From positions 1-36,043 of the forward strand of contig WRNW01000006.1 in the NCBI GenBank assembly GCA_009776375.1: 36,043 nucleotides of DNA, in the 5' to 3' direction. This document shows positions 2,413-29,646 of this stretch, one piece after another. Source of the DNA: Candidatus Saccharimonadota bacterium. Lineage in GTDB: Bacteria > Patescibacteriota > Saccharimonadia > Saccharimonadales > Saccharimonadaceae. Below the pieces are notes generated by a model, which saw only the letters and a program-made list of their open reading frames with translations, was not told where the DNA came from and ran no database searches. The translations under genes were made by a program, and so were the position numbers. Within the stretch, counting starts at the first letter, position 1. Each line of letters begins with the position of its first letter.

Positions 2413-4881
2413 CTATAGCTCTGCCCAATTTTTGCCTGATTTAATATCAACTTTGAGCCGCACTCCCAAATTCGGATGGATATTTTCCATAATGTGTTTT
2501 AGTTTTTCCCCGACTGCCCTAGCGTCCGCCGGCGCGCATTCGACCAAAATACTATCGTGAATTTGCAGAATCTGTTCAGCCCGGACACCACAAAACTCAT
2601 CGAGGCTAGATTTTTCATCATTATTCGAGGAAACAGGAGTAGCGGAACGAGGCGCATTTGACATGCGTCGAGTGAGCAACGCATCTGTTGACGAAGAAGA
2701 ATGTGAAAAAGCAGTCTCGACTTTGAGCATGGCCATTTTCATCAAATCCGCCTCAGTCCCTTGAATCGGCATGTTGGCGGCAGCGCGTTTAGCAGCTTCG
2801 CGAATCACGAAATTCGCCGATTTAACGTCCGGTGTCAAGCGACGACGACCAAACAAAGTTTCGACGTAACCCTCAGTTTTGGCCTTATCAATCGTCGCGT
2901 CGATAAAATCGCGAATCGGCTGGCGAACGCGGAAATAACGAGCGATGAATTCTTGGGCTTTTTTAAAATCCATGCCAGTCGCTGCCGCCAGTCCGTGCGG
3001 ACTCATCCCATATAAAACACCAAAGTTAATAATTTTGGCGTGGCGTCGCATCTCCGGTGTGACGTCGTCAAAGGCCACCCCGTAGGCTTCGGCCGCGGTT
3101 TTGGTGTGAATATCAACGCGGTCATCCTCGAAATCCTCGATCAAATTCGTGTCGCCGCTGAGCGCCGCCGCTAGCCGTAGCTCGAACTGCGAATAATCGG
3201 CGCTGACCAAAACTTTCCCATCGCTCGCCACAAACGCCCGGCGAATTTCGCGCCCGAGTTCGGTCCGAATCGGAATGTTTTGTAAATTCGGATTGCTCGA
3301 CGATAAACGTCCTGTCGCCGTGACGTCTTGCCGAAAATCGGTGTGCAATTTGCCGTCCGTCGCCACTAAATTCGGTAGCGCATCAACATAAGTATTTTTG
3401 AGTTTAAGGATTTCACGTATCTCAGTAATTCGATCGATAATCGGATGCTGGCCGCGTAGTTTATCGAGTTCCGCTTTGCCGGTCGAAAAGTAACCGCGCA
3501 CCGATTTTTTGATACCAGTTGTTGGTAATTTCAGCTCTCGAAACAGCGCGTCCGACAGTTGCGGTGCTGAACTAATGTTAAATTCATAACCGACAGTTTC
3601 CCAGATTGTCTGTTCCAGTTTGGCGATTTTTTTGGCAAATTCTCGGCTCTGGCTAGCCAAGATCTCAGTGTCAATTTTGACGCCGCGGGCTTCGATTTTT
3701 GCTAGCAAATTCTGCATCGGAAAGTCGAGTTCGCGCGCTAATTCCGCTAATTTTGGCATGGCGTTCAAGGTTTTTGCCTGATTTGTCGCGACGATTTTTA
3801 ATTGATCGAGATTGGCGACTTTTTCCACCCGCCCGAGCAAAAATCCAGCAATCCGGGTGTCGAATTTAATTTCTGGCAAAGGTTTATCTTCGGCTAGCAA
3901 TTTCTCGGCCAAAACTTTACCATCGTTGACGATAATTCGACCGTCGCTCTCGGTAAAGAATAATCCCGGCACGTCCTCGAATTCCGGCTCGGATGTGACC
4001 GTATCATCACGCATATATTCCGGCAATCGGCGTAGCAGCGACGTGAATTCCAACTTTTCGAGCTCGGTGCGCAATTTCGCGACATCTAATTTTTGCACAT
4101 CGACCGCCGCGAGATCGAGTTTTAATGGTGCATCGCACCAAATCCGCGCTAGCTCGCGCGACATATAGGCTGAATCTTTGCCGGATTCCAACTTTGCCCG
4201 CCAGGCCGGTTTGATCTTGTCCAAGTTATCGTAAATCGCCTCGAGTGACCCGTATTCTTGGAGCAGCGTGATCGCCGTTTTTTCGCCAATGCCCGGCACA
4301 CCGGGGATGTTGTCCGAATTGTCGCCCTTGAGCGATTTGAGATCGAGAAATTGCTCGACTTTTAATCCATATTTTTTCTCAAAAGCCGCCACGTCGAACT
4401 TTTCCAGATTCGCCAAACCTTTTTTGAGAGCATAGAGTTCAGTATCGCTATCAACCACCTGGAGCATGTCGAGGTCCGAACTAATCATGATCGTGTGAAT
4501 CCCCTGCTTGTTCGCCTGCTCGCTCAGGGTCCCCATAATGTCGTCCGCCTCGTAATCGTCGAGCTCGAGCAGCGGCCAGCCAAAAGCGTCGAGCAGATTT
4601 TTCAGTAGCGGAATCTGCGCATAAAAATCCGGCGGCGCCGGGTGGCGGTTGGCCTTGTACTCGGGGTAAATTTTCACGCGGCGGCGAATATTGGTTTTCG
4701 ATTTGTCCCAAGCCACCGCCACATAATCCGGCTCGATTTTACGTAGCAACTCGAGCGCCATCGCCGCAAAACCATAAACCCCACCGGTTGGCGTCCCATC
4801 GCGCAGACTGAGAGAAGGCATCGCGTAATAACTGCGATAAAAAATCGACTTGCCATCAATCAGCGCGAATTTCTTGGTCAT
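2413..4881 (-). CDS. polA: DNA polymerase I with in-frame palindromic insertion
   Basis: 822-residue DNA polymerase I for gap filling and primer removal. Residues 1-290 are a complete 5'-3' exonuclease (LELDDYEADDIMGTLSE, ISSDLDMLQ, GDNSDNIPGVPGIGEKTA). The middle region (about 300-400) is much shorter than a proofreading domain, so 3'-5' exonuclease activity is probably absent. The polymerase domain has motif A (SADYSQFELRLAA), motif B (RRHAKIINFGVLYG) and motif C (ILQIHDSILVE). About 39 Ser/Arg/Asn-rich residues (roughly 725-763), encoded by a palindrome, are inserted in the loop before motif C. A TGA-TACAAT box ends 6 bp before the ATG, so the mRNA is probably leaderless. Confidence 0.95.
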   Translation of the reverse strand: MTKKFALIDGKSIFYRSYYAMPSLSLRDGTPTGGVYGFAAMALELLRKIEPDYVAVAWDKSKTNIRRRVKIYPEYKANRHPAPPDFYAQIPLLKNLLDAFGWPLLELDDYEADDIMGTLSEQANKQGIHTIMISSDLDMLQVVDSDTELYALKKGLANLEKFDVAAFEKKYGLKVEQFLDLKSLKGDNSDNIPGVPGIGEKTAITLLQEYGSLEAIYDNLDKIKPAWRAKLESGKDSAYMSRELARIWCDAPLKLDLAAVDVQKLDVAKLRTELEKLEFTSLLRRLPEYMRDDTVTSEPEFEDVPGLFFTESDGRIIVNDGKVLAEKLLAEDKPLPEIKFDTRIAGFLLGRVEKVANLDQLKIVATNQAKTLNAMPKLAELARELDFPMQNLLAKIEARGVKIDTEILASQSREFAKKIAKLEQTIWETVGYEFNISSAPQLSDALFRELKLPTTGIKKSVRGYFSTGKAELDKLRGQHPIIDRITEIREILKLKNTYVDALPNLVATDGKLHTDFRQDVTATGRLSSSNPNLQNIPIRTELGREIRRAFVASDGKVLVSADYSQFELRLAAALSGDTNLIEDFEDDRVDIHTKTAAEAYGVAFDDVTPEMRRHAKIINFGVLYGMSPHGLAAATGMDFKKAQEFIARYFRVRQPIRDFIDATIDKAKTEGYVETLFGRRRLTPDVKSANFVIREAAKRAAANMPIQGTEADLMKMAMLKVETAFSHSSSSTDALLTRRMSNAPRSATPVSSNNDEKSSLDEFCGVRAEQILQIHDSILVECAPADARAVGEKLKHIMENIHPNLGVRLKVDIKSGKNWAEL
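2611..2710. repeat. Palindromic element inside polA
   Basis: A roughly 100-bp imperfect palindrome centred at 2660. The core is a 6-bp stem, GCGCAT (2652-2657) and ATGCGT (2663-2668, one mismatch), around the loop TTGAC. Outer parts also pair: TTTTCAT and ATGTGAAAA at the ends, TTCG/CGAA, and AACAG/CTGTT. It is translated in frame as about 33 low-complexity residues at a place where other PolA proteins have a short surface loop. The core is nearly identical to the centre of the element at 11289-11412. Confidence 0.75.
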
Positions 4882-6742: not shown

Positions 6743-9031
6743 ATGAAGTTTATCGTCAAGTCGAAAATAACTGGTTCTCGTCTGCGTCGTGTTATCGAGC
6801 GCAGTGGTGTGGTTTTTGTGCTGGTCTTGTTTTTGCTTAGTTTTGGTGCTGTTTTTGGTGATATCCTTGGGCCACATAGCGTGAGTGCCCTAACCGCTGT
6901 TGATCCGTTAACTATTGCGGCCTGTGGTGGTAATCCAGAATGTTTTGCTTTTACGATTGATACGCGATTGGTAGCTACCGGCGTAACAACTGGTACGGCA
7001 ACGACGTTTTCTATTCCAGTGTCCGGCATCGTCGGTGGTTCTAGTAACACTTATAGCTGGCTGGTCGACTGGGGTGATGGTAGTGCTGTCCAGTCTGTCG
7101 TCAGTAGTGGTACTAGTCACGATTACGCGACCACTGGCGGCGCGGGGCAATACCAAATTACCATCCGACCCAACGGCGCCGCTACAATGGGGTGGATGAA
7201 TGCTTTTGGCTTCTCTAGCGGACCATCATCATCATCGGGAGCTAATACCGATGCTAACAAATACATGTTTCGCTCTATCGACACACCCTTCACCAATCTT
7301 ATGAAAACTGAGGGTGCTATTTATCGTTTTGCTAATGTGTTCTACAATACCCGCAACGCTACGGGTATTCCAGATAACCTTTTTGCTAATATTTCGACTA
7401 CTGGCACTACGAATTTTAGCTATATGTTTTTGAATACTTTCGCTGGTCTGGGACGTAATTCGACGACTGTGACTATTCCTACGGACCTCTTTGATTTTCT
7501 TGATACTAGTAGCGGCACGAATTTCAGCGGCATGTTCAGCGGTACTTTTTCTAGTGCAGGCTCGGGCTCTTTGTGCAATAACACTTTCGGCTATGCTTCT
7601 ACCATTGCTAGTATTCCAGTCGGTTTGTTTGATCCGATTGACACTAGAAACGGTACGGATTTTAGCAATATGTTCGATAGTACTTTCAGCTGTTATGCTT
7701 ATCGATCCACAACAGGTACAATCCCCGCGGGTCTGTTTGATTCGATTAATACCAGTAATGGTACTGGTTTTGGCGCCATGTTCTACCGGACATTTAGCAA
7801 CTACGCTCGTAGTTCAACAGTTGGCACGATCCCGGCTGGTTTATTTGATTCGATTGATACTAGTAATGGCACAAGTTTCTACACTTCTCTCTCTGGAGGT
7901 ATGTTTTACGGAACTTTCAGTGCTTACGCTTACAACTCGACTATTGGTACTATTCCTGCTGGTTTGTTTGATTCGATTAACACTAGTAACGGCGTGAACC
8001 TCCAGAGTATGTTTAATTATACCTTTTCTAATTATGCCAATAGCTCCACTTCTGGTACTATTCCTGCTGGTTTGTTTGATTCTATTGACACCGGTAGCGG
8101 TATAAACTTCGAAAACATGTTCAGCGGTACTTTTAGTAGGTATGCCTATTATTCAACAATTGGCACTATACCAGCTGGTTTATTTGATTCGATTAATACC
8201 AGCAATGGTACTTATTTTAGGGACATGTTTAACAGTACTTTCTCCTACTACGCTTATAATTCAACAGTTGGTACTATTCCTCTTGGTCTGTTCGACTTTC
8301 TTGATACCAATAGTGGTGATACCAGTAATAGTCTGACGTTCAGCTATATGTTTAACGGCACTTTCAATGCTTACGCTATTCGCACGGCCAGGTTTATAGT
8401 TGGTGGTTCGGTTGTCGATACTCAAACTTTTGCGGCGGGACCATACAGTATGAAGAATACTTCTACTGATAACACCCCTAGCACCAACCCGGTCGTTAAC
8501 GCGGGTGATGTGGTTGTACCAACCTATGATTCCGTGGTTCGGACTATTGCGGCGCCGACTGGCGCGTACGCGGGTTATGATTGGTATCGAACAGATGGCA
8601 CATCGTGTGCGGCGCTGGTTCCGACGCCAAATTGTGGCGCGCAGACGACTGACAAGTTGGTTAGTTTTCCGAACACTAGCGAATGGGTTCCGGAAACTTC
8701 GACCGAATATAGCAATGTAACTTTTTATGGTGTGGCGTCGAGCATGCCGGTAACCGTGACATTTGATTCTAATGACGGTTCGGTGGTGGCGGATCAAACT
8801 ATCAACGCGGGTAGTGTCATAGATCGACCGATTGATCCCATCAAGGCAGGCTATACTTTTGCGGGATGGTTCGTCGACCCCGCGCTCACGACGCTTTGGA
8901 ATTTCGCGACTGATATCATTAATGAGGACATAATTCTCTATGCTGATTGGACGTTGATACCAGTTCCACCCGGACCAATCACACCGATCATCCCGGGTGT
9001 GCCGAACGTCGGTGTCGGTTTATTTGAATAA
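6743..9031 (+). CDS. Secreted surface protein with PKD-like, DUF285-type and Flg_new repeats
   Basis: 762 residues. A basic N-terminus and a hydrophobic helix (about 24-45, GVVFVLVLFLLSFGAVFG) make a signal peptide or anchor. A PKD-like segment (YSWLVDWGDGS, SHDY) follows. Residues about 205-550 hold eight or nine repeats of roughly 36-45 residues with the pattern TIPxGLFDxIDTxxGxxFxxMFxxTFS, resembling DUF285/BspA-type surface repeats. Near the C-terminus VTFDSNDGS to YTFAGWFVDP is a Listeria-Bacteroides (Flg_new) repeat. The tail is Pro/Gly-rich and there is no LPXTG. Such proteins are thought to mediate adhesion. In CPR epibionts host attachment is plausible but not shown here. It overlaps natB tail-to-tail by 12 bp. 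Confidence 0.85.
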   Translation: MKFIVKSKITGSRLRRVIERSGVVFVLVLFLLSFGAVFGDILGPHSVSALTAVDPLTIAACGGNPECFAFTIDTRLVATGVTTGTATTFSIPVSGIVGGSSNTYSWLVDWGDGSAVQSVVSSGTSHDYATTGGAGQYQITIRPNGAATMGWMNAFGFSSGPSSSSGANTDANKYMFRSIDTPFTNLMKTEGAIYRFANVFYNTRNATGIPDNLFANISTTGTTNFSYMFLNTFAGLGRNSTTVTIPTDLFDFLDTSSGTNFSGMFSGTFSSAGSGSLCNNTFGYASTIASIPVGLFDPIDTRNGTDFSNMFDSTFSCYAYRSTTGTIPAGLFDSINTSNGTGFGAMFYRTFSNYARSSTVGTIPAGLFDSIDTSNGTSFYTSLSGGMFYGTFSAYAYNSTIGTIPAGLFDSINTSNGVNLQSMFNYTFSNYANSSTSGTIPAGLFDSIDTGSGINFENMFSGTFSRYAYYSTIGTIPAGLFDSINTSNGTYFRDMFNSTFSYYAYNSTVGTIPLGLFDFLDTNSGDTSNSLTFSYMFNGTFNAYAIRTARFIVGGSVVDTQTFAAGPYSMKNTSTDNTPSTNPVVNAGDVVVPTYDSVVRTIAAPTGAYAGYDWYRTDGTSCAALVPTPNCGAQTTDKLVSFPNTSEWVPETSTEYSNVTFYGVASSMPVTVTFDSNDGSVVADQTINAGSVIDRPIDPIKAGYTFAGWFVDPALTTLWNFATDIINEDIILYADWTLIPVPPGPITPIIPGVPNVGVGLFE
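7360..8390 (+). repeat. Tandem coding repeats of the surface protein
   Basis: Eight or nine repeat units with starts near 7363, 7471, 7611, 7717, 7827, 7948, 8057, 8163 and 8271. Neighbouring units share up to about 20 identical bases around a Gly-Leu-Phe-Asp codon block (for example 7948 and 8057). The high DNA identity suggests recent duplication and allows recombinational change in copy number. Confidence 0.8.
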
Positions 9032-10327: not shown

Positions 10328-10353
10328 TTCTAGAAACCTCCTTCTGACGATTG

Positions 10354-10516
10354 ATCCGAAACTAATCTTTTTTGCGAACCCTCCGATTTTCCGAAAGTTT
10401 CTCTTTGATTAAAATTTTCGAAAGCACGAATACATGGAGTGTGATTCGGAAATTTTAGAAACAGAAACTTTGACGCGAAAATCGGTCGGGTGAGACAAGG
10501 AAGATTAGTTTTGGAT
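10354..10516. repeat. Large imperfect palindrome between natA and natB
   Basis: A 163-bp hyphenated palindrome centred near 10435 fills nearly all of the 192-bp gap between the two transporter genes. The outer arms at 10354-10369 and 10501-10516 match at 15 of 16 positions. Further arms pair at 10383-10391 with 10477-10485 (CCGATTTTC) and at 10394-10402 with 10463-10471. As RNA it would form one long hairpin between the two cistrons and could stabilise or separate their expression. A 67-codon ORF across it (10330-10533) is judged fortuitous. Confidence 0.75.
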
Positions 10517-11288: not shown

Positions 11289-11412
11289 CCAGGCTTGATG
11301 CGTTTAGATGAAATTCCAGGCGAAATCGAGGAACGAGCAAGGCGTATTTGACATACGTCGAGCGAGTACCGGAGATTTCAACGCCGAAGTTCGCTCAACG
11401 CGTTAAGCCTGG
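11289..11412. repeat. Palindromic element over the 3' end of ackA
   Basis: A 124-bp imperfect palindrome centred exactly at 11350. The ends are CCAGGCTT (11289-11296) and AAGCCTGG (11405-11412), with many further paired blocks inward. The core is GCGTAT, loop TTGAC, ATACGT. This equals the polA core except for a C-to-T and a matching G-to-A change, so base pairing is kept. The last ten or so codons of ackA lie within it. On the minus strand it is followed by GCTTTTTCTTTT, so it may also serve as the ackA terminator. Confidence 0.75.
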
Positions 11413-12577
11413 CCGTATCCTCGGCGATCATTAGCTCTTCGTTGGTACGGATGACAACGACCGTTGGTGCGCCGTCGGGCGAAATGATGCCTTCCTCTTC
11501 GCGCATTTTTTTGTTCAGTTCTGGATCAAGTTTGTAATCGAAAACCGCCAAATGTTTGATAATATTTTCGCGAAATTCAATGCCGCGTTCGCCAGCGCCG
11601 CCAGTTAGAATCAAGGCGTCAACGCGCGGCAGAGCGACCATCATCGCGGCGATATGTTTGGCAATACTATAAGTCAAAATGTCGAGAGCCAGCGCGGCGT
11701 TTTCGTCGCCCTCGGCCGCGGCGGTTTCTAATTCGCGCTGGTCAGACGACAGACCAGATAGCCCGAGCAAGCCACTTTCCTTATTCAAGATCGACAGGAT
11801 TTCGTCGGCTGATTTATCTAACTTTTTCATCATGAACGGCACGATCGCCGGATCGACGCTGCCGGAACGGGTGCCCATGACTACGCCCTCGAGTGGCGTG
11901 AAACCCATTGACGTATCGACGCTTTGGCCATTAAGGACAGCCGCAACGCTGATGCCGTTACCGAGATGCGCAATAATGAAAGCAGATTTCTTTAATGGGA
12001 TCCCGAGCATTTTCGCCGCCGCTCGCGCCACAAACCGATAACTTGTACCGTGCGCGCCATAACGTCGCACACCGTACTTTTCGTACCACTCCGTCGGCAC
12101 AGTGTAACGATAAGCCCGCGGTGGCATGGTTTGATGAAAAGCCGTATCAAAAACCGCCACTTGCGGCAAATTGGGCATGATTTTAGTTATCGCTCGAATG
12201 CCAGCGATCTGGGCGGGATTGTGCAGCGGCGCATAGACGGTTGCTGCCTCAATCGCCGCCATCACTTGATCGTCGATGATGACCGAATCCTTGATTTTCT
12301 CGCCGCCGTTGACCACGCGATGACCGACAGCCTTGATAGTACTTTTCAAACCCCGCTCGTCTAATTCATCAAAAATCCGTCGCATGGCGGTTTCAAAATC
12401 CGCGCCCGGAATTTTTTCAGTGGTCGATTGGCCATCATATTTGATTGTGATTCGCGCGATCGGTGAACCGATTTCTTCGGCGATGCCTTTGATAATTACT
12501 TCTTTTGAAGTGATATCGAACAGTTGAAATTTGATCGACGAGCTGCCGCTATTAATGACCAAGATGTTTTTACTCAT
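11378..12577 (-). CDS. ackA: Acetate kinase
   Basis: 399-residue acetate kinase, which interconverts acetyl phosphate and ADP with acetate and ATP. In a fermentative CPR cell it would give substrate-level ATP. Motifs are the N-terminal NSGSSSIKFQLF, HRVVNGG, VFDTAFHQTMP, RRYGAHGTSYRFV, HLGNGISVAAV and GTRSGSVDPAI, all in order and at normal length. A GGAG ribosome binding site precedes the ATG. It lies 10 bp after vapC, so it may be read from the vapBC promoter. The last residues (RLNALSELRR) come from a palindromic element that overlaps the gene end. Confidence 0.96.
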   Translation of the reverse strand: MSKNILVINSGSSSIKFQLFDITSKEVIIKGIAEEIGSPIARITIKYDGQSTTEKIPGADFETAMRRIFDELDERGLKSTIKAVGHRVVNGGEKIKDSVIIDDQVMAAIEAATVYAPLHNPAQIAGIRAITKIMPNLPQVAVFDTAFHQTMPPRAYRYTVPTEWYEKYGVRRYGAHGTSYRFVARAAAKMLGIPLKKSAFIIAHLGNGISVAAVLNGQSVDTSMGFTPLEGVVMGTRSGSVDPAIVPFMMKKLDKSADEILSILNKESGLLGLSGLSSDQRELETAAAEGDENAALALDILTYSIAKHIAAMMVALPRVDALILTGGAGERGIEFRENIIKHLAVFDYKLDPELNKKMREEEGIISPDGAPTVVVIRTNEELMIAEDTARLNALSELRR

Positions 12578-13261: not shown

Positions 13262-13320
13262 AGTCTAGCAAATCGCTTTACATTTGTCAAATGCTTTACA
13301 TTTTTTAAGTGCTTTACATT
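13262..13320 (-). promoter_or_regulatory. vapBC promoter with three direct-repeat operators
   Basis: Minus-strand -35 TTGACA (13290-13285), 17-bp spacer, -10 TAGACT (13267-13262). GCTTTACATT occurs three times, at 13275-13284, 13293-13302 and 13311-13320, exactly 18 bp apart. One copy is in the promoter spacer and the others lie upstream, the last touching the dnaG stop codon. This is a likely operator array for VapB. A second possible -10, TACAAT, lies near 13245. Confidence 0.7.
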
Positions 13321-15256
13321 ATTCGTGATCAGTTTTGCGGCCGTCCCAGACTATGAATAAACCACCAAAATCATCGCGCGAGGAAGTTTTTTCGAGCAGG
13401 TTGAGATCGCGTTTGAGGCCGTTGACTGCGCCGTTAAGGATTTCGACGCGCTCGCTATTTTCACCATCCAAAGCTACCGCCAGCTCGGCGCTGAGACTTT
13501 CAAATTTGCTGCGGAGTTTTAGTTTTTCCAACTCAACCATGTTCGCGAGCAACAAGATTCGCTCGTCCGTGTCGCCGCCCAGTTCCTGTGATGCGATGAT
13601 TTCTAGTTCAGCCATTTTGTCCGCCATTTCGCCGGAAATTTCGATTTTTTCACCCAATAGATAATATTTCAACTTCGCAAAAGTTTCGGTCAAGTACTCG
13701 TCACGCAGATTATTTAGGATGGTTCGCAAACGCTGGGTTTTGAGCGCGATTGCAAAAATTTGATTCAGGAAATATTGTTCATCACGACGTGAATATTCGC
13801 GACGTGGTGTTTTGATTTCGCGCATAATTTTTCGTGGTTTTTTATCTGTAACAAACGAATACATTTTTTGTTCAAGGACGTGCAAACTGGCGCCCGTTAG
13901 TTCGCTCAACTGTTTTAGATAAAATTCGATTTCGACTGCGTCGCGGAGATTGCGAATTAGTTTTAATGCCTGGCTAGTCAAGGTTTTTTTACCATCCGCC
14001 GTGGTTAAATCTTCGCGCGCGGCGTATTGATTAATCACCCACTCGACAGCTGGTACATGTTGTTTGATCGCGGCACGCCATCTGTCGATATTTTTTTGAA
14101 TGAGCTCATCGGGATCCTTCGCTTCATTAAACGAAATCACCGAAAGTTTTAATTCCAATGGTTCGGCCAGAGCAATCGCTCGTTCGGTTGCCGCTAACCC
14201 TGCGCGATCACCGTCGAAACATAGTCGGACATTGTGGCTCAGGCGTGATAAACTTTTTAAATGATCGCGGGTCAAGGCCGTCCCCGCACAAGCCACCACA
14301 TTTTTTACCCCGGCCTGGTGCGAACTAATCACGTCCAAATTTCCTTCGACTAAAACTGTAAAATCTTCCTGGCGAATGGCGTTTTTGGCAAAGTTTAATC
14401 CGAAAACTTGGCGGCTTTTGTCATACAAAATCGTCGCTGGCGTATTCAAATATTTTGGCTCGCCATCTCCGATAATTCGCCCGGTAAAACCAACAATTTG
14501 ACCCTGACCATCACGCAACGGAATCATCATCCTTGAACGAAACATCTCGCCACCGCGACCGCCGATCAAACCAGCCGCGCGGATTTCTGGTTCGCTAAAA
14601 CCTCTTTTTAATAAAAGTTGTTTAAGGTTGACACGCGATCTGGGACGACCTTCTTCTGAATCCTCTCCACGAAAATGCGTCAATGGAGCCGCCGGAGCGA
14701 CAGGGTCCCCCATAGATGGGGATGTCGCGCCGCGCGGATCGCTTGACGCATTACGGGATGAAGAAGAAGGTCGTCCCAGATCGCTATCTCCTGGCGCATA
14801 ACCAATTCCCCACTCCATGACGGTTTCGCGCGATAGTTTTCGCCCGTTCGATATGTAATTTGAGGCTTCCTTTGACTTGACCATTTCGCGTTGGAAATAA
14901 TTCATCGCCAGATTGTTCATTGTGATAATTCGCTCTTTGCGTTTAGCGAGATCGCGCGGCGCTCGTTCGTCGTATTGACCGAGATCCACACCGGCTTTTC
15001 GGGCCAAGAGTTCCAAGGCACCGCGAAAATCTAAACCTTCAACCTCCATGACGAAACTAAAGACATCACCGCCCTTGTTAGAGGAAAAATCATGCCAAAT
15101 ATCCCGCTCGGGCGTGACGAAAAATGACGGAGTTTTCTCATTGGTGAACGGCGACAGCCCACGCCAATAGCGACCAGAACGTTTGAGCTGAACATATTCG
15201 CCAATCACGTCCTCGATGGCCAGCCGCGCCCGCACCTCTTCCTTTGCGTCTTGCAT
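13319..15256 (-). CDS. dnaG: DNA primase with zinc ligands lost and a palindromic insertion
   Basis: 645-residue primase that makes RNA primers at replication forks. The N-terminal domain keeps the zinc-finger framework (GLSPFTNEKTPSFFVTPER, IWHDFSSNKGGDVFSF), but the usual Cys/His ligands are Ser, Thr, Asp and Ser. The RNA polymerase core follows, with TOPRIM motifs VLVEGNLDVISSHQAG and CFDGDRAGLAATERAI. The C-terminal 180 residues are helical and would bind the helicase. Residues about 158-208 are a 50-codon insertion encoded by a palindrome, placed between GYAPGDS and RVNLKQLLLKRGFSE, which would otherwise be continuous. A TAAAAT ends 6 bp before the ATG, suggesting a leaderless mRNA. Confidence 0.95.
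   Translation of the reverse strand: MQDAKEEVRARLAIEDVIGEYVQLKRSGRYWRGLSPFTNEKTPSFFVTPERDIWHDFSSNKGGDVFSFVMEVEGLDFRGALELLARKAGVDLGQYDERAPRDLAKRKERIITMNNLAMNYFQREMVKSKEASNYISNGRKLSRETVMEWGIGYAPGDSDLGRPSSSSRNASSDPRGATSPSMGDPVAPAAPLTHFRGEDSEEGRPRSRVNLKQLLLKRGFSEPEIRAAGLIGGRGGEMFRSRMMIPLRDGQGQIVGFTGRIIGDGEPKYLNTPATILYDKSRQVFGLNFAKNAIRQEDFTVLVEGNLDVISSHQAGVKNVVACAGTALTRDHLKSLSRLSHNVRLCFDGDRAGLAATERAIALAEPLELKLSVISFNEAKDPDELIQKNIDRWRAAIKQHVPAVEWVINQYAAREDLTTADGKKTLTSQALKLIRNLRDAVEIEFYLKQLSELTGASLHVLEQKMYSFVTDKKPRKIMREIKTPRREYSRRDEQYFLNQIFAIALKTQRLRTILNNLRDEYLTETFAKLKYYLLGEKIEISGEMADKMAELEIIASQELGGDTDERILLLANMVELEKLKLRSKFESLSAELAVALDGENSERVEILNGAVNGLKRDLNLLEKTSSRDDFGGLFIVWDGRKTDHE
14635..14784. repeat. 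Palindromic element inside dnaG (23-bp perfect terminal inverted repeats)
   Basis: A 150-bp hyphenated palindrome, exactly 50 codons. The outer arms 14635-14657 and 14762-14784 are perfect 23-bp inverted repeats starting GCGATCTGGGACGACC. Nested inside are AATGCGTCAA (14674-14683) with TTGACGCATT (14743-14752), then GCGACA (14697-14702) with TGTCGC (14723-14728), and a small CCCCA/TGGGG tip. The translated part is Ser/Pro/Arg/Gly-rich and without hydrophobic core. Its position in a loop of an essential protein implies that it is tolerated in frame. Confidence 0.85.
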
Positions 15257-25469: not shown

Positions 25470-26441
25470 CTAAATATTATATAACAATTGTATGATCAAA
25501 TTATAAGAATTACCAAAATTTAACAGTCCGACAATAGATGATAGATTATTTTGACTGAGATTTTTAGTAATACGTCGACGAGTCTTGGGACGAATTACGC
25601 GATAATCTAGATAATTTACCCAACCCAAGAAGTCAGTCCCCGCATTTATAGTCTGAATAAAGATTTTATCCTGATGTAGATTCATTATTAACCGTGATTC
25701 TAAAAAGAGTGTTATGCGTTCTTGATACCAACCTAATTTTTCCGCATCTGCATCTAAAATTACGAAATCATCAACATAACGAATGTAATATTTGGCGCGC
25801 AATTTGTGTTTAATGAACTGGTCGAGTTCATTTAAATAAATGTTAATGAGTAGTTGCGAAGTCACATTACCCAGCGGCAAACCACACGGTTGGCTATTGA
25901 TCCGAAAACTGTCTATAATCTCATTCAAAACTGCTAGTAATTTTGGATCAGCAATCCGCCGAGCAAGAATCTGTTTTAGAACGTGATGATCCACCGTATC
26001 AAAACATTTTCGAATATCACATTTTAGAGTATAACATTGCCGTTGGTTCTTGTTTGATACGCGTCGTGCGAAGTCCCGATAACGATTTAGTGCGCGATGT
26101 AAACCTTTACCAACACGACATGAGTAGACGTCAAAAATAAATTTGCGATCAAAGTAGTCGTAGAGAGCAGCATAAACCGCGTGATGAACGATACGATCAC
26201 CAACCGTGGCCTTGTGGATTATGCGATATTTTGGGTCATGGATAATAAATCGCTGATATGTGCCGTGCCGATATGCGCCCGACAATAACTGGGCACTCAA
26301 ATCCGCCAAACTCGAAAAAGTATGCATCGCAAAATCCGCAACTTCGGGTTTATTTGTTTTACCGCGTCGGAAACTCTCCCAACTCTTTAATAAGTTTTCC
26401 ACCGAGAAAACTGTTGTGTGATCTGGTATACTGTTCTTCAT
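25470..26441 (-). CDS. Diversity-generating retroelement reverse transcriptase
   Basis: About 323 residues from the ATG at 26441. RT motifs in order are HKATVGDRIVHHAVYAALYD, the catalytic LKCDIRKCFDTVDHH, GLPLGNVTSQLLINIYLNEL and the catalytic YIRYVDDFVIL, then the thumb-side MNLHQDKIFIQ and DFLGW. The motif LGNVTSQ fits the [I/V/L]GxxxSQ signature of DGR RTs rather than the QGxxxSP of group II introns. With Avd it would copy the TR RNA with adenine-specific errors and home the cDNA into the VR. The upstream in-frame codon at 26489 is rejected because it overlaps avd. It is followed closely by the vWA gene. Confidence 0.93.
   Translation of the reverse strand: MKNSIPDHTTVFSVENLLKSWESFRRGKTNKPEVADFAMHTFSSLADLSAQLLSGAYRHGTYQRFIIHDPKYRIIHKATVGDRIVHHAVYAALYDYFDRKFIFDVYSCRVGKGLHRALNRYRDFARRVSNKNQRQCYTLKCDIRKCFDTVDHHVLKQILARRIADPKLLAVLNEIIDSFRINSQPCGLPLGNVTSQLLINIYLNELDQFIKHKLRAKYYIRYVDDFVILDADAEKLGWYQERITLFLESRLIMNLHQDKIFIQTINAGTDFLGWVNYLDYRVIRPKTRRRITKNLSQNNLSSIVGLLNFGNSYNLIIQLLYNI
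26427..26432 (+). promoter_or_regulatory. avd promoter (extended -10)
   Basis: TATACT preceded by TGG on the plus strand. The expected start near 26439-26440 is only 3-4 nt before the avd ATG at 26443, so the mRNA has almost no leader. It lies within the first codons of the RT gene on the other strand. Confidence 0.45.
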
Positions 26442-26442
26442 T

Positions 26443-26820
26443 ATGACTATAAACCCTTCATCAACACCAAAATTGTCTGGTATCGCCATGAAGATTTTAG
26501 CAGGTTACAAGAAATGGCATACTCTTTCACGTCATGTCCCAAAAATTCACCGCTATTCACTGGGCGTTAAAATCGATGATTGCTTTGCGGGCTTGGTTGA
26601 ATTGGTAGCCATGGCGCAGTTTTCTGATGTGGAGCTGAGACGTAAATACCTGACCGCAGCAATTGCTAAAAATGATTGCCTGAAATTCATGCTCTATACA
26701 CTATATGAAATAGAGGGAATCGATGAAAAATCTTTCGTTGCCTTATCATCAGACATAGAAGAAGTTGGCAAAATGCTTTATGGTTGGAAGAATAAAATCG
26801 AGACCACAATAAAATCATAA
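26443..26820 (+). CDS. avd: DGR accessory variability determinant (Avd-like four-helix protein)
   Basis: 125 residues with the Avd/23S-rRNA-IVP-like four-helix pattern: YKKWHTLSRHVPKIHRYSLG, then KIDDCFAGLVELVAMAQFS, RRKYLTAAIAKNDCLKFML and the C-terminal EEVGKMLYGWKNKIE. In other DGRs a basic Avd pentamer binds the RT and the TR RNA and is needed for mutagenic copying. Unusually, it lies on the plus strand, opposite to RT, TR and target. Its ATG is one base from the RT ATG, and its stop is 4 bp before the TR. A second in-frame ATG (residue 16) is an alternative start. Confidence 0.88.
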   Translation: MTINPSSTPKLSGIAMKILAGYKKWHTLSRHVPKIHRYSLGVKIDDCFAGLVELVAMAQFSDVELRRKYLTAAIAKNDCLKFMLYTLYEIEGIDEKSFVALSSDIEEVGKMLYGWKNKIETTIKS

Positions 26821-26824
26821 AAGA

Positions 26825-26953
26825 TCAGGTGTCAAACACGAGCCAACGATCATTCGCATTCCCGTCGTCCCTCAACCAGTTCCTGTTCCGGTTGAACTCA
26901 GAACCATTCCACTGGGCGTAAGGCACGTTCCAGTTGCCGTCCGAATCGCAAAC
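26825..26953 (-). repeat. DGR template repeat (TR)
   Basis: 129 bp matching the VR at 27265-27394. On the coding strand it is rich in AAC and AAT codons (Asn), the usual targets for adenine mutagenesis, for example GNWNVPYAQWNGSEFNRNRN. Compared with the VR, 18 adenines are changed in about 15 codons, while nearly all other positions agree. The differences at the stop-proximal end (TTTGACACC here, TTTGAGACT in VR) are non-adenine and mark the IMH*/IMH boundary. An open frame across it (26825-27121) only mirrors the target gene's frame. Between TR and VR there is no other gene. Confidence 0.95.
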
Positions 26954-27198
26954 TCGCGCAATCCGACCATCTGGTTGATCATCCACAAAGCTACCTGGTA
27001 GAATCGTGGCGAACTTTATCATTTTTCCTAGGCATCTATAATGCACCAGTCGGTTGCGCAGACTTGATCTTTTATTGATAAAGAAAAGAAAACCACGCTG
27101 TGAATTAAAATATCGCACCACATTCTAGATTTTCCCGTCTCACAGCAGTGATGTATGGGATTTATCCGCTACATTTATATTCACTGTCTGCGATATTC

Positions 27199-27227
27199 AT
27201 CATATATTTTTTCCGTAGCAAAGTCAA
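27199..27227 (-). promoter_or_regulatory. Candidate promoter for the TR RNA
   Basis: Minus-strand -35 TTGACT (27227-27222), exactly 17 bp, -10 TATGAT (27204-27199). The start near 27192 would yield an RNA that passes through the TR and on through the antisense of avd into the RT gene, which would give a TR-RT transcript. Confidence 0.6.
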
Positions 27228-27264
27228 AAAGTCAACCGCCATGACAAATTTTCAATGACAAAAA

Positions 27265-27394
27265 TCAAGTCTCAAACACGAGCCAACGATCATCCGCATC
27301 CCCGCCGACCCCCAACCAGCCCCAGTACCGGTCGAACTCAGAACCAGGCCCCCCGGGCGAAAGGCACGAACCAGTAGCCGTCCGAAGCGCAAAC
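27265..27394 (-). repeat. DGR variable repeat (VR), with +1 frameshift
   Basis: 130 bp, one more than the TR. It encodes the C-terminus of the MoxR ATPase. Adenine-only substitutions turn TR Asn codons into Tyr, Phe, Asp and Gly, among others. A run of six C (27349-27354, plus strand) replaces a TR stretch with fewer bases and shifts the frame, so translation stops at 27338 (TGA). With the single base removed the frame continues through SEFDRYWGWLG and DDRWLVFET to the stop at 27265, matching the TR frame end. Confidence 0.95.
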
Positions 27395-29617
27395 CACCGA
27401 ACCTGGAAAATGATACCAATTTCCATCCTGGAGTCCAAATTTCGTGACAAGATTTTGATCAAGTGTGTTAATCTTCTCGATAATATATTGTTCTAAACGA
27501 AAATCTGGTAATTGATATCTTTGATTTTTTAGCCAATCCATGATTTCGTGAACCTTGGCTGATGTTTTCCCCATCTTTTGTTTGATATCGTCATTTGATA
27601 AAACTTGAAGTTTTTTGAATTGCTCGGATAGGGGGATGCTATCAATATCGGGATTGGTGGTATATTCGCCAAATTCCGTTGTATCAAGATTAGCAGCCAG
27701 CGCGGCATGATCAGTTGCTCTCGGCGATACCGAATCGTGTCGCAGATTAGCCTTGTTTAGCCAACTGATAGTTTCTAACCAGGATTCTAGTTCCGCGATA
27801 GTTGTCGCTGCTTCTGGTGATTCGGTTCCAGTAGCTGTATCGGACACAAACTCCTTGGTATCCTCAGACGCTTTTTTGTCACGCGCACCCATCGGGTCGA
27901 ACGCAGCAATTTGGCCAATGTTAAATATTTCAGTCATACGTGAAGCAGCAATCTTCTCTTCTTTATTTTTTTCGTCTGTAATAGTCAACCCACTCAAGAC
28001 TCCGTCCGACAGATGCAACTCTTGTTCAGTTTTGGTTGTGAGTAAGCCTTTAATCGCTAGAATTTTTGCAGCTAATTCTCGATCAGATAATGGATATGTT
28101 TCAAAATTCAATGCCACTTGTAATCGATCGTCCAAATACTCTACAAATGATAGGTTTTTGTCTTCGCCCTTTGCGTCTTCGCCCAATAATTGCTTCTGTT
28201 GCCAGCCTTCCAAAATATTTGCGATCGTTCCTTGGGTAAACACCAAGTATTGGAGCGACGGTTTATTGCTACCAACGTCCACCGTGCCAGTAAGCTGAGC
28301 AACTTCATCAGTCATAGTTCCGATATAAGCAGTTTGAATATCAGTAAATGCTTCGAGTAGTTTCGGTATCGTTACAGTTAGATCATATTTGGACATCTTG
28401 ATTTGGCCATGCTCGTTCATTAATCGACTCAGCGCAATATCATAGGCTTCTTCCCCTGGTGTATAATCAATTTTCAGGTTATTTTGCTCAAACTCACGAG
28501 CAATTTCTGGTGGTAGCTCTTGGCGTTCGGGATTTTTCTCTGACTTTAGATTAGCGGTCAGGATGATTTGAAATCCAGGTTGAATAACCACATTGCCGTT
28601 GCCCGGTATATTAATCGTATCGCCCGGGCGAGCGTTGAGAAGTCCTTTGATAAAAACCATCTGTTCCGATGGTAACGCTGTGAATTCATCAAAAATCACC
28701 GCTTTGCCTTCCTGGATCGCTTTGGTTAATGGTCCAGCAATTTCAACGGTTCTGAATGCACCTGATTCGGTTGGTTCAATGCCAGTTTTACCCCAGATTT
28801 GGCTTTCGCGAGTCTGTGGACTACAATAAATCATTTCCGCCTCCTGCCCAGTAAATTCTTCGGCAGCATAGCGCGCCAACGACGTTTTACCTGTACCAGT
28901 TGGTCCGTGGAGAAACATTGGCCGACCCGATAACATCTTTTCGCCAATTTGGTTAATAATTGTGCGTGACGACGGTACCATCGCGATATGACCAGATTTT
29001 GTTAGGTCATTTCTATATGATTCTAACTGCGCCGCTTTATAAATCACTGGCGTCGTTTCCGAGATCTTATCTAGTTCTTTACTAGTAGTATTTTTGGCTA
29101 TGATAGTTTTTTCTAATTTGCCAAATAGAATCGGACGCGCTAATTCGCTCGCCTGCGTTAATTGTAATGCAGTTTTGAGTATGGAGTCGTCCAGGACAGC
29201 TTTACTTATGAATTTTCTGTAGACTCGTTTAAACGCTGGGTAATCTAGACCATAATATTCATTTAGCTTGTCTTTATATTGCTGTTTAGTCACCTCGTTC
29301 CATTCGGTAGTCTTCCTATCGGTATCATAAGTATCGCGAAGTTTTAGCTGCTGGCCCAAACTGGCTATAAGCTCATCCGCAGTAATGATACCAGCCGCAA
29401 TTTCTGGAAAAGTTGCTTCTAGTTTCTCATTGAACAACGTATCGTAGGCTACTGCATCTTCGTCTGTCGCGAGTTCGAATTCACCAAGCTGGTTCTGAAG
29501 CCGCTCGTACTCCCTCATCGCACTCCTAGTTGCCCGCGTTAGCAAGGACAATCCAAACGCAGACGACACTTTTTCTTGCTCGGGCATTTCGGCTTCGTTC
29601 ATAACAGTACTAATCAT
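27338..29617 (-). CDS. MoxR-like AAA ATPase carrying the DGR variable region at its C-terminus (frameshifted)
   Basis: About 759 residues as encoded, or about 790 if the VR frameshift is corrected. A helical N-terminal region (1-220) precedes an AAA module with Walker A FLHGPTGTGKTSLARYA (near 240), Walker B AVIFDEFTALP (near 310), sensor-1 region FQIILTANLKS and an arginine-finger region ERQELPPEIAREFEQ. A helical lid, an acidic linker and a C-terminal variable domain (VVCASDGYWFVPFA) follow. MoxR proteins remodel targets together with vWA partners; here the C-terminus would choose the target and is diversified by the DGR. The ATG at 29617 is preferred to a TTG at 29641, which lies inside the promoter. 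Confidence 0.9.
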   Translation of the reverse strand: MISTVMNEAEMPEQEKVSSAFGLSLLTRATRSAMREYERLQNQLGEFELATDEDAVAYDTLFNEKLEATFPEIAAGIITADELIASLGQQLKLRDTYDTDRKTTEWNEVTKQQYKDKLNEYYGLDYPAFKRVYRKFISKAVLDDSILKTALQLTQASELARPILFGKLEKTIIAKNTTSKELDKISETTPVIYKAAQLESYRNDLTKSGHIAMVPSSRTIINQIGEKMLSGRPMFLHGPTGTGKTSLARYAAEEFTGQEAEMIYCSPQTRESQIWGKTGIEPTESGAFRTVEIAGPLTKAIQEGKAVIFDEFTALPSEQMVFIKGLLNARPGDTINIPGNGNVVIQPGFQIILTANLKSEKNPERQELPPEIAREFEQNNLKIDYTPGEEAYDIALSRLMNEHGQIKMSKYDLTVTIPKLLEAFTDIQTAYIGTMTDEVAQLTGTVDVGSNKPSLQYLVFTQGTIANILEGWQQKQLLGEDAKGEDKNLSFVEYLDDRLQVALNFETYPLSDRELAAKILAIKGLLTTKTEQELHLSDGVLSGLTITDEKNKEEKIAASRMTEIFNIGQIAAFDPMGARDKKASEDTKEFVSDTATGTESPEAATTIAELESWLETISWLNKANLRHDSVSPRATDHAALAANLDTTEFGEYTTNPDIDSIPLSEQFKKLQVLSNDDIKQKMGKTSAKVHEIMDWLKNQRYQLPDFRLEQYIIEKINTLDQNLVTKFGLQDGNWYHFPGSVVCASDGYWFVPFARGAWF

Positions 29618-29640
29618 AACAGATTTTACGCTGTGCGACA

Positions 29641-29646
29641 ATTATA
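29641..29646 (-). promoter_or_regulatory. -10 box of the MoxR/VR gene
   Basis: Perfect TATAAT on the minus strand, giving a start near 29634, about 17 nt before the ATG at 29617. No clear -35. The box overlaps the stop codon of the NYN remnant, so the promoter seems to have been created at that junction. Confidence 0.5.

Follow-up and report, generated by a model that had tools for sequence, protein, structure and literature searches.

Locus-specific inverted arms around in-frame palindromic elements of Saccharibacteria

Two palindromes in a 36,043-nucleotide stretch of Candidatus Saccharimonadota DNA (the window), one within polA and one at ackA, very probably belong to a mobile family of palindromic elements found in frame in genes. 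What is new here is that, in most copies, the conserved core is surrounded by inverted arms that are specific to the locus. We propose, with somewhat less than even confidence, that such transposase-less elements spread through CPR bacteria by target copying and self-primed snap-back synthesis, the inverted flank being the scar of this process.

The polA gene (DNA polymerase I, 822 aa) lies on the minus strand at 2413–4881, and its ORF runs uninterrupted across the element, whose core GGCGCATTTGACATGCGTCGAG was read at 2652–2673. The palindrome had been placed at 2611–2710 but is longer: the polA-type element of family 2 (model R2), arms included, covers 2600–2720 on the minus strand in the sense frame of polA, with the R2 core match at 2608–2713. 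Two other species of the same genus have MLKVEKEMSHICQQILQIHDS and MLRVEDEMGDICEQILQIHDS at this site, and relative to these the PolA of the window has 39 extra residues, approximately SSSTDALLTRRMSNAPRSATPVSSNNDEKSSLDEFCGVR, corresponding to a net insertion of 117 nt at 2581–2697 on the minus strand (approximately residues 729–767; boundaries ± ~20 nt). Comparison with Taq polymerase places the insert shortly upstream of catalytic motif C, between Taq residues ~768 and ~777; the original prediction had put about 33 codons before motif C, a length too short against same-genus PolA. The alignment that had been suggested as a check reveals that the inserted residues are missing at this site from every other PolA compared (25+ relatives), and other PolAs carry independent insertions at different sites. 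The plus strand of the polA element, folded as DNA, gives z = -2.96.

The second copy occupies 11291–11410 on the minus strand, with its core GGCGTATTTGACATACGTCGAG read at 11342–11363 and an R2 match at 11297–11403 (E 1.6e-20, from a covariance model that includes this copy among its five). An element had been expected at ackA and is present, but it overlaps the stop codon of this gene (acetate kinase, 11378–12577, minus strand; name taken from the original prediction, reading frame checked) rather than lying within it. The two copies are 73% identical over 55 aligned nt, and their cores are, as had been stated, related by paired complementary changes. Both cores are also palindrome centers, with local arm scores of 16 (polA) and 19 (ackA) compared to a maximum of 14 in the mononucleotide-shuffled window. 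When the core was searched for across the window's own genome, the exact 19-base core was found only at polA and ackA, and family copies are plentiful in the class; five further matches with two mismatches, including those in rpoB-, nrdR- and murE-like genes, were rejected as unrelated or random sequence.

An exact scan for CTCGACGYATGTCAAATRCG in one genome per species (84,980 species) returned two contigs, both from Candidatus Saccharibacteria of roe deer jejunum. By our own estimate about two matches would be expected by chance in a collection of this size, but the two contigs returned both carry full elements: one is in frame in PolA at another site, the other in frame in an IleS that contains a further copy. 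The covariance model R2, built from five copies including those at polA and ackA, detects over 150 copies outside this genome. Copies occur in 64 of the 295 family genomes (24 of 61 genera), up to 13 per genome, and in 128 of 393 genomes of the class (69 of 153 genera); these are mostly draft assemblies, and because some copies lie at contig ends the copy numbers are lower bounds. The load of the window's genome is sparse, with 2 copies. Most genomes have none, and copies lie at unrelated places in unrelated genes. Hosts assigned by NCBIfam are ArgS, ValS, DnaG, RmlD, Tgt, GltX, PheT, NrdG, LepA, RfbB, PyrG, a ParB/Noc-like protein, MurE, FtsW and MurG, joined by PolA and IleS by reading (the names PolA, IleS, ackA and the window's dnaG are based on sequence reading with PDB or orthologue matches). 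Viral contigs searched for the family 2 core gave no match, nor did a search of Rfam. Beyond the taxonomic family, R2 relatives are more diverged and mostly outside long ORFs, and these non-coding repeats are possibly the ancestral form. Ahead of many of the R2-like repeats there (L236–L255) lies a short stem rich in G+C (CTGCC.GCCGGC..GCCGGC).

The strongest palindrome of the window, which had gone unmentioned in the original prediction, is a 150-bp element in dnaG (DNA primase, 13319–15256, minus strand) with a fold z of -10.5. This family 1 element lies in frame at 14635–14784 on the minus strand (model R1, core 14650–14768), the dnaG ORF is uninterrupted across it, and its 29-nt outer arms are 93% complementary. 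Its palindrome score of 36 (center 14710) is followed by 32 for an intergenic palindrome centered at 10435, both above those of the ackA and polA copies. DnaG orthologues in genomes G001, G002 and G005 are without the insert, reading GYAPEDSRLRKLL, GYAPEKSQLKQLL and GYAPESPTLKNLL. BLAST with the dnaG element finds 98% identity in pcrA of the same genome and 89–92% identity in another genus. The R1 model finds 24 places in 11 of 295 family genomes, several of them at contig ends, and the hosts by NCBIfam are YchF, PcrA, TsaD, RlmD, a RluA-family synthase, ValS, a NifS/IscS-like desulfurase, ObgE, a RsuA-like synthase, Tgt, MnmA and exodeoxyribonuclease I. At least three reading frames are used by family 1 copies. 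Phage and plasmid collections searched for family 1 gave no match. A kinship between families 1 and 2 through common TTGACGCAT-like strings was considered and rejected, as the two are not alignable by eye. In the window's genome (G000), a tsaD-like gene close to a contig end also contains part of a family 1 element, in frame (C14:23254, L020).

Other palindromes were observed. The second strongest of the window, at 10347–10515, is AT-rich and intergenic between two ABC-transporter-like genes; it is not reported by R1 or R2 searches of the window and is possibly a third family. In related genomes, five or more further palindromic inserts, all in frame, occupy one ArgS loop (after VRAKKIL; L172, L186, L190, L192 and L195; fold z -4.6 to -7.7), which suggests that there are many undescribed families. 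PcrA of G001 (L199) contains another palindromic insert of ~55 codons (z = -3.5) in the loop that holds the family 1 element in PcrA of G000, and this locus also has an R1 match at 3576–3709 (E 5e-7). Elsewhere in the window, a surface-type ORF at 6743–9031 contains 108-nt repeats (TIPAGLFDSIxTSNGxxFxxMFxxTFSxYAxxS), and the region 25470–27394 is a probable diversity-generating retroelement. It consists of a reverse transcriptase ORF (25470–26489, minus strand), a template-like repeat beyond it (26820–26953) and a variable-like repeat (27260–27394) at the 3' end of the ORF at 27338–29641; 18 of the 22 mismatches between the repeats fall on template A.

To evaluate the arms, we reverse-complemented the 3' flanks of all copies and compared the 5' flank of each copy with its own 3' flank and with those of the others. 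Starting 35 nt from the loop, where the nearest signal is partly core covariation, the own match of 94 of 100 R2 copies exceeds those to other loci (p <= 0.05), and for 76 it is the best of all; from 45 nt these numbers are 57 and 28, and the excess is gone by 55–60 nt. For R1, 18 of 19 copies are best in their row at 50 nt from the center, with the signal gone by ~75 nt. Because the excess extends beyond the core, the arms belong to the locus. The signal is weaker for R2 matches outside the family (own score 8.0 vs 5.9; 7 of 24 best in row). Where the ancestry is readable, native host sequence forms one arm and an inverted copy of it the other; the native arm was identified in proteins conserved enough to read it: PolA (GTLAxQA side), RfbB, PyrG, DnaG, ArgS and ackA. 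RfbB, for example, reads HISTDEVFGSLAPKG-[element]-YFTEKSPY, and AGTCTTGCACCTAAGGGCTCA recurs inverted as TGAGCCCTTATCTGCAAGACT. At ackA the arms are the native 3' coding end CAGGCTTAACGCGTTGAGCGAACTTCGGCGTTGAAATC and a decayed inverted copy at ~11291–11328, identical in 30 of 41 aligned columns, a match equaled by 0 of 5000 shuffles. Part of the arm in dnaG and pcrA has no clear native match. In reversed R2 copies (L114 in ArgS and L103 in PolA) the native arm lies on the 3' side of the gene, so polarity in family 2 seems to follow the element; in family 1 it does not follow orientation, as in both dnaG and ychF the arm towards the 5' end of the gene looks native while their elements differ in orientation.

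We propose that a non-autonomous mobile palindromic element with a core of ~80–110 nt enters variable loops of conserved proteins in Saccharibacteria, where it would be translated as a hydrophilic Ser/Ala/Thr-rich peptide tolerated by the host protein, and that its arms originate by snap-back; taken as a whole, we give this account an even chance of being right. A target strand that has been cut or has stalled would be extended from its 3' end, with the palindromic element as template. The new strand would then fold back and self-prime snap-back synthesis on the flank directly upstream, adding ~15–35 nt of inverted flank before rejoining to the far side, to give the product N5 - element - inverse(n5) - N3. 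The enzymes may be those of host replication or repair. The snap-back step itself is tentative, and we would place it a little short of even.

The main rival is that a single insertion, or ordinary MITE transposition, was followed by template switching within the palindrome that homogenized the arms outward. Such switching would likewise yield inverted arms after insertion, in the PolA copies L131 and L139 the match is in each case to the copy's own variant flank, and template-switch repair of quasi-palindromes has been invoked for the coding palindromes of Nematomorpha mitochondria (PMC6649704). However, homogenization should overwrite one side, yet in RfbB and PolA native residues are retained on both sides, with the inverted arm as a net addition. 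It also fits poorly with the old ackA and polA copies, which are decayed rather than kept perfect, and we consider this explanation fairly unlikely.

The hairpin with its short loop also recalls a REP-like element moved as single-stranded DNA by a RAYT/Y1 (IS200-like) transposase, and G000 and G001 each encode one Y1_Tnp protein. Inverted flank copies are unexpected from the IS200/IS605 mechanism. PF01797 is absent from 41 of the 46 genomes scanned, most carriers included, while control genomes were positive; the copy-rich genomes G316, G320, G304, G297, G280, G262, G311 and G315 are all without it. Judged by eye, there is no terminal GTAG tag, and a CGTC is present beside the central stem of the element, partly paired. 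Movement by such a transposase is improbable.

The use of reading frames bears on whether the element is instead a functional RNA or DNA signal (a terminator or a replication or recombination site), or is bypassed in translation, rather than being a selfish insertion. Sorted by position, the 102 distinct R2 copies comprise 57 within ORFs of 150 or more codons and 45 outside long ORFs; the latter, together with the strong hairpin, would suit a signal. However, 46 of the 57 in-ORF copies use one frame and orientation, encoding approximately SSADALLTRRMSNTSRSATPASS / SSADALLTRRMSNTSRSATPASSHS, and by our own reading two other frames of the R2 consensus are likewise open but little used. This strict use of one open frame points to translation, and we infer that it fits translation better than bypass or excision. 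The lack of an Rfam match, the unrelated positions and genes, and the many genomes without copies also argue against a signal, making this explanation quite doubtful. The palindrome has been maintained: across the 102 distinct rows 92% of cells pair and 24 of 27 pairs have two-sided changes, counts that lean towards the structure to which the alignment was fitted. The covariation score is 0.618 vs 0.163 in shuffled controls, a comparison inflated by relatedness, and at most 0.081 in slid controls, which retain relatedness. As a kind, Rickettsia palindromic elements (RPEs) combine a dispersed palindrome of ~100–150 bp with an in-frame conserved peptide, and both features are present here. The original reading of an RPE-like in-frame insertion is supported by the empty sites, the other insertion sites and genes, the covariation and the one conserved coding frame. 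Finally, fold-back chimeras of assembly or amplification give inverted repeats, nearly all the genomes are drafts and several R1 matches lie at contig ends, but many genomes, some of them single-contig, carry the same element at different sites, with frames that resume exactly and arms that show old compensatory divergence, which makes an artifact extremely improbable.

Protein-coding palindromes were formerly regarded as a peculiarity of Rickettsia. RPEs and Wolbachia palindromic elements are 100–150 bp long; a genome holds several families of them, inserted in frame into conserved genes unrelated to one another (PMC3767692, PMC10969869), and a 2024 review considered the same process elsewhere as merely conceivable (PMC10969869). 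The Saccharibacteria elements resemble them in palindrome size, several families per genome, in-frame position, exposed inserts and the lack of a known mobilizer, but occur in another phylum, and the accounts of RPEs in PMC3767692 and PMC10969869 describe no locus-specific inverted flank copies. The Saccharibacteria elements work like RPEs, a likeness of behavior that makes no claim of sequence homology. Intragenic REPs, GTAG- or CGTC-tagged, are also palindromic, dispersed and sometimes in frame, as in uvrA and uvrB, the CGTC repeats lacking a dedicated transposase (PMC3733652). Their units are 20–40 bp with an unpaired tag and tail, often as dimers, whereas here there is a single hairpin of ~80–120 nt with target-derived arms. 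In-frame palindromes as such are thus not new, given RPEs and in-frame REPs (PMC3767692, PMC10969869, PMC3733652). Mitochondria of Nematomorpha and Magnusiomyces also have long inverted repeats within protein genes (PMC6649704). The Nematomorpha palindromes, unlike the Saccharibacteria elements, are not known to be copies of a single dispersed sequence, and Magnusiomyces byps go untranslated through bypassing, against which the frame bias argues here. MITEs carry IS-matching terminal inverted repeats and are usually flanked by direct duplications of the target. In Saccharibacteria the outer arms vary per locus, and on inspection by eye of the empty sites no direct target-site duplication stands out; nor, with Y1_Tnp as the autonomous relative searched for, were IS-type terminal repeats recognized. 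Bacterial MITEs are otherwise similar in being short, non-autonomous and dispersed, with occasional in-frame fusions (PMC10969869). A search of open-access journal papers combining palindromic elements with CPR, Patescibacteria or Saccharibacteria found no description.

Genes of replication, repair, translation and cell-wall synthesis thus harbor several families of in-frame palindromes across a class of ultra-small CPR bacteria. Their inverted arms provide a testable signature of how palindromes multiply without a transposase, a question that dates from the discovery of RPEs, and the same snap-back mode, if true, might account for RPEs and other palindromes without a mobilizer. The elements also show how essential enzymes gain new loops.
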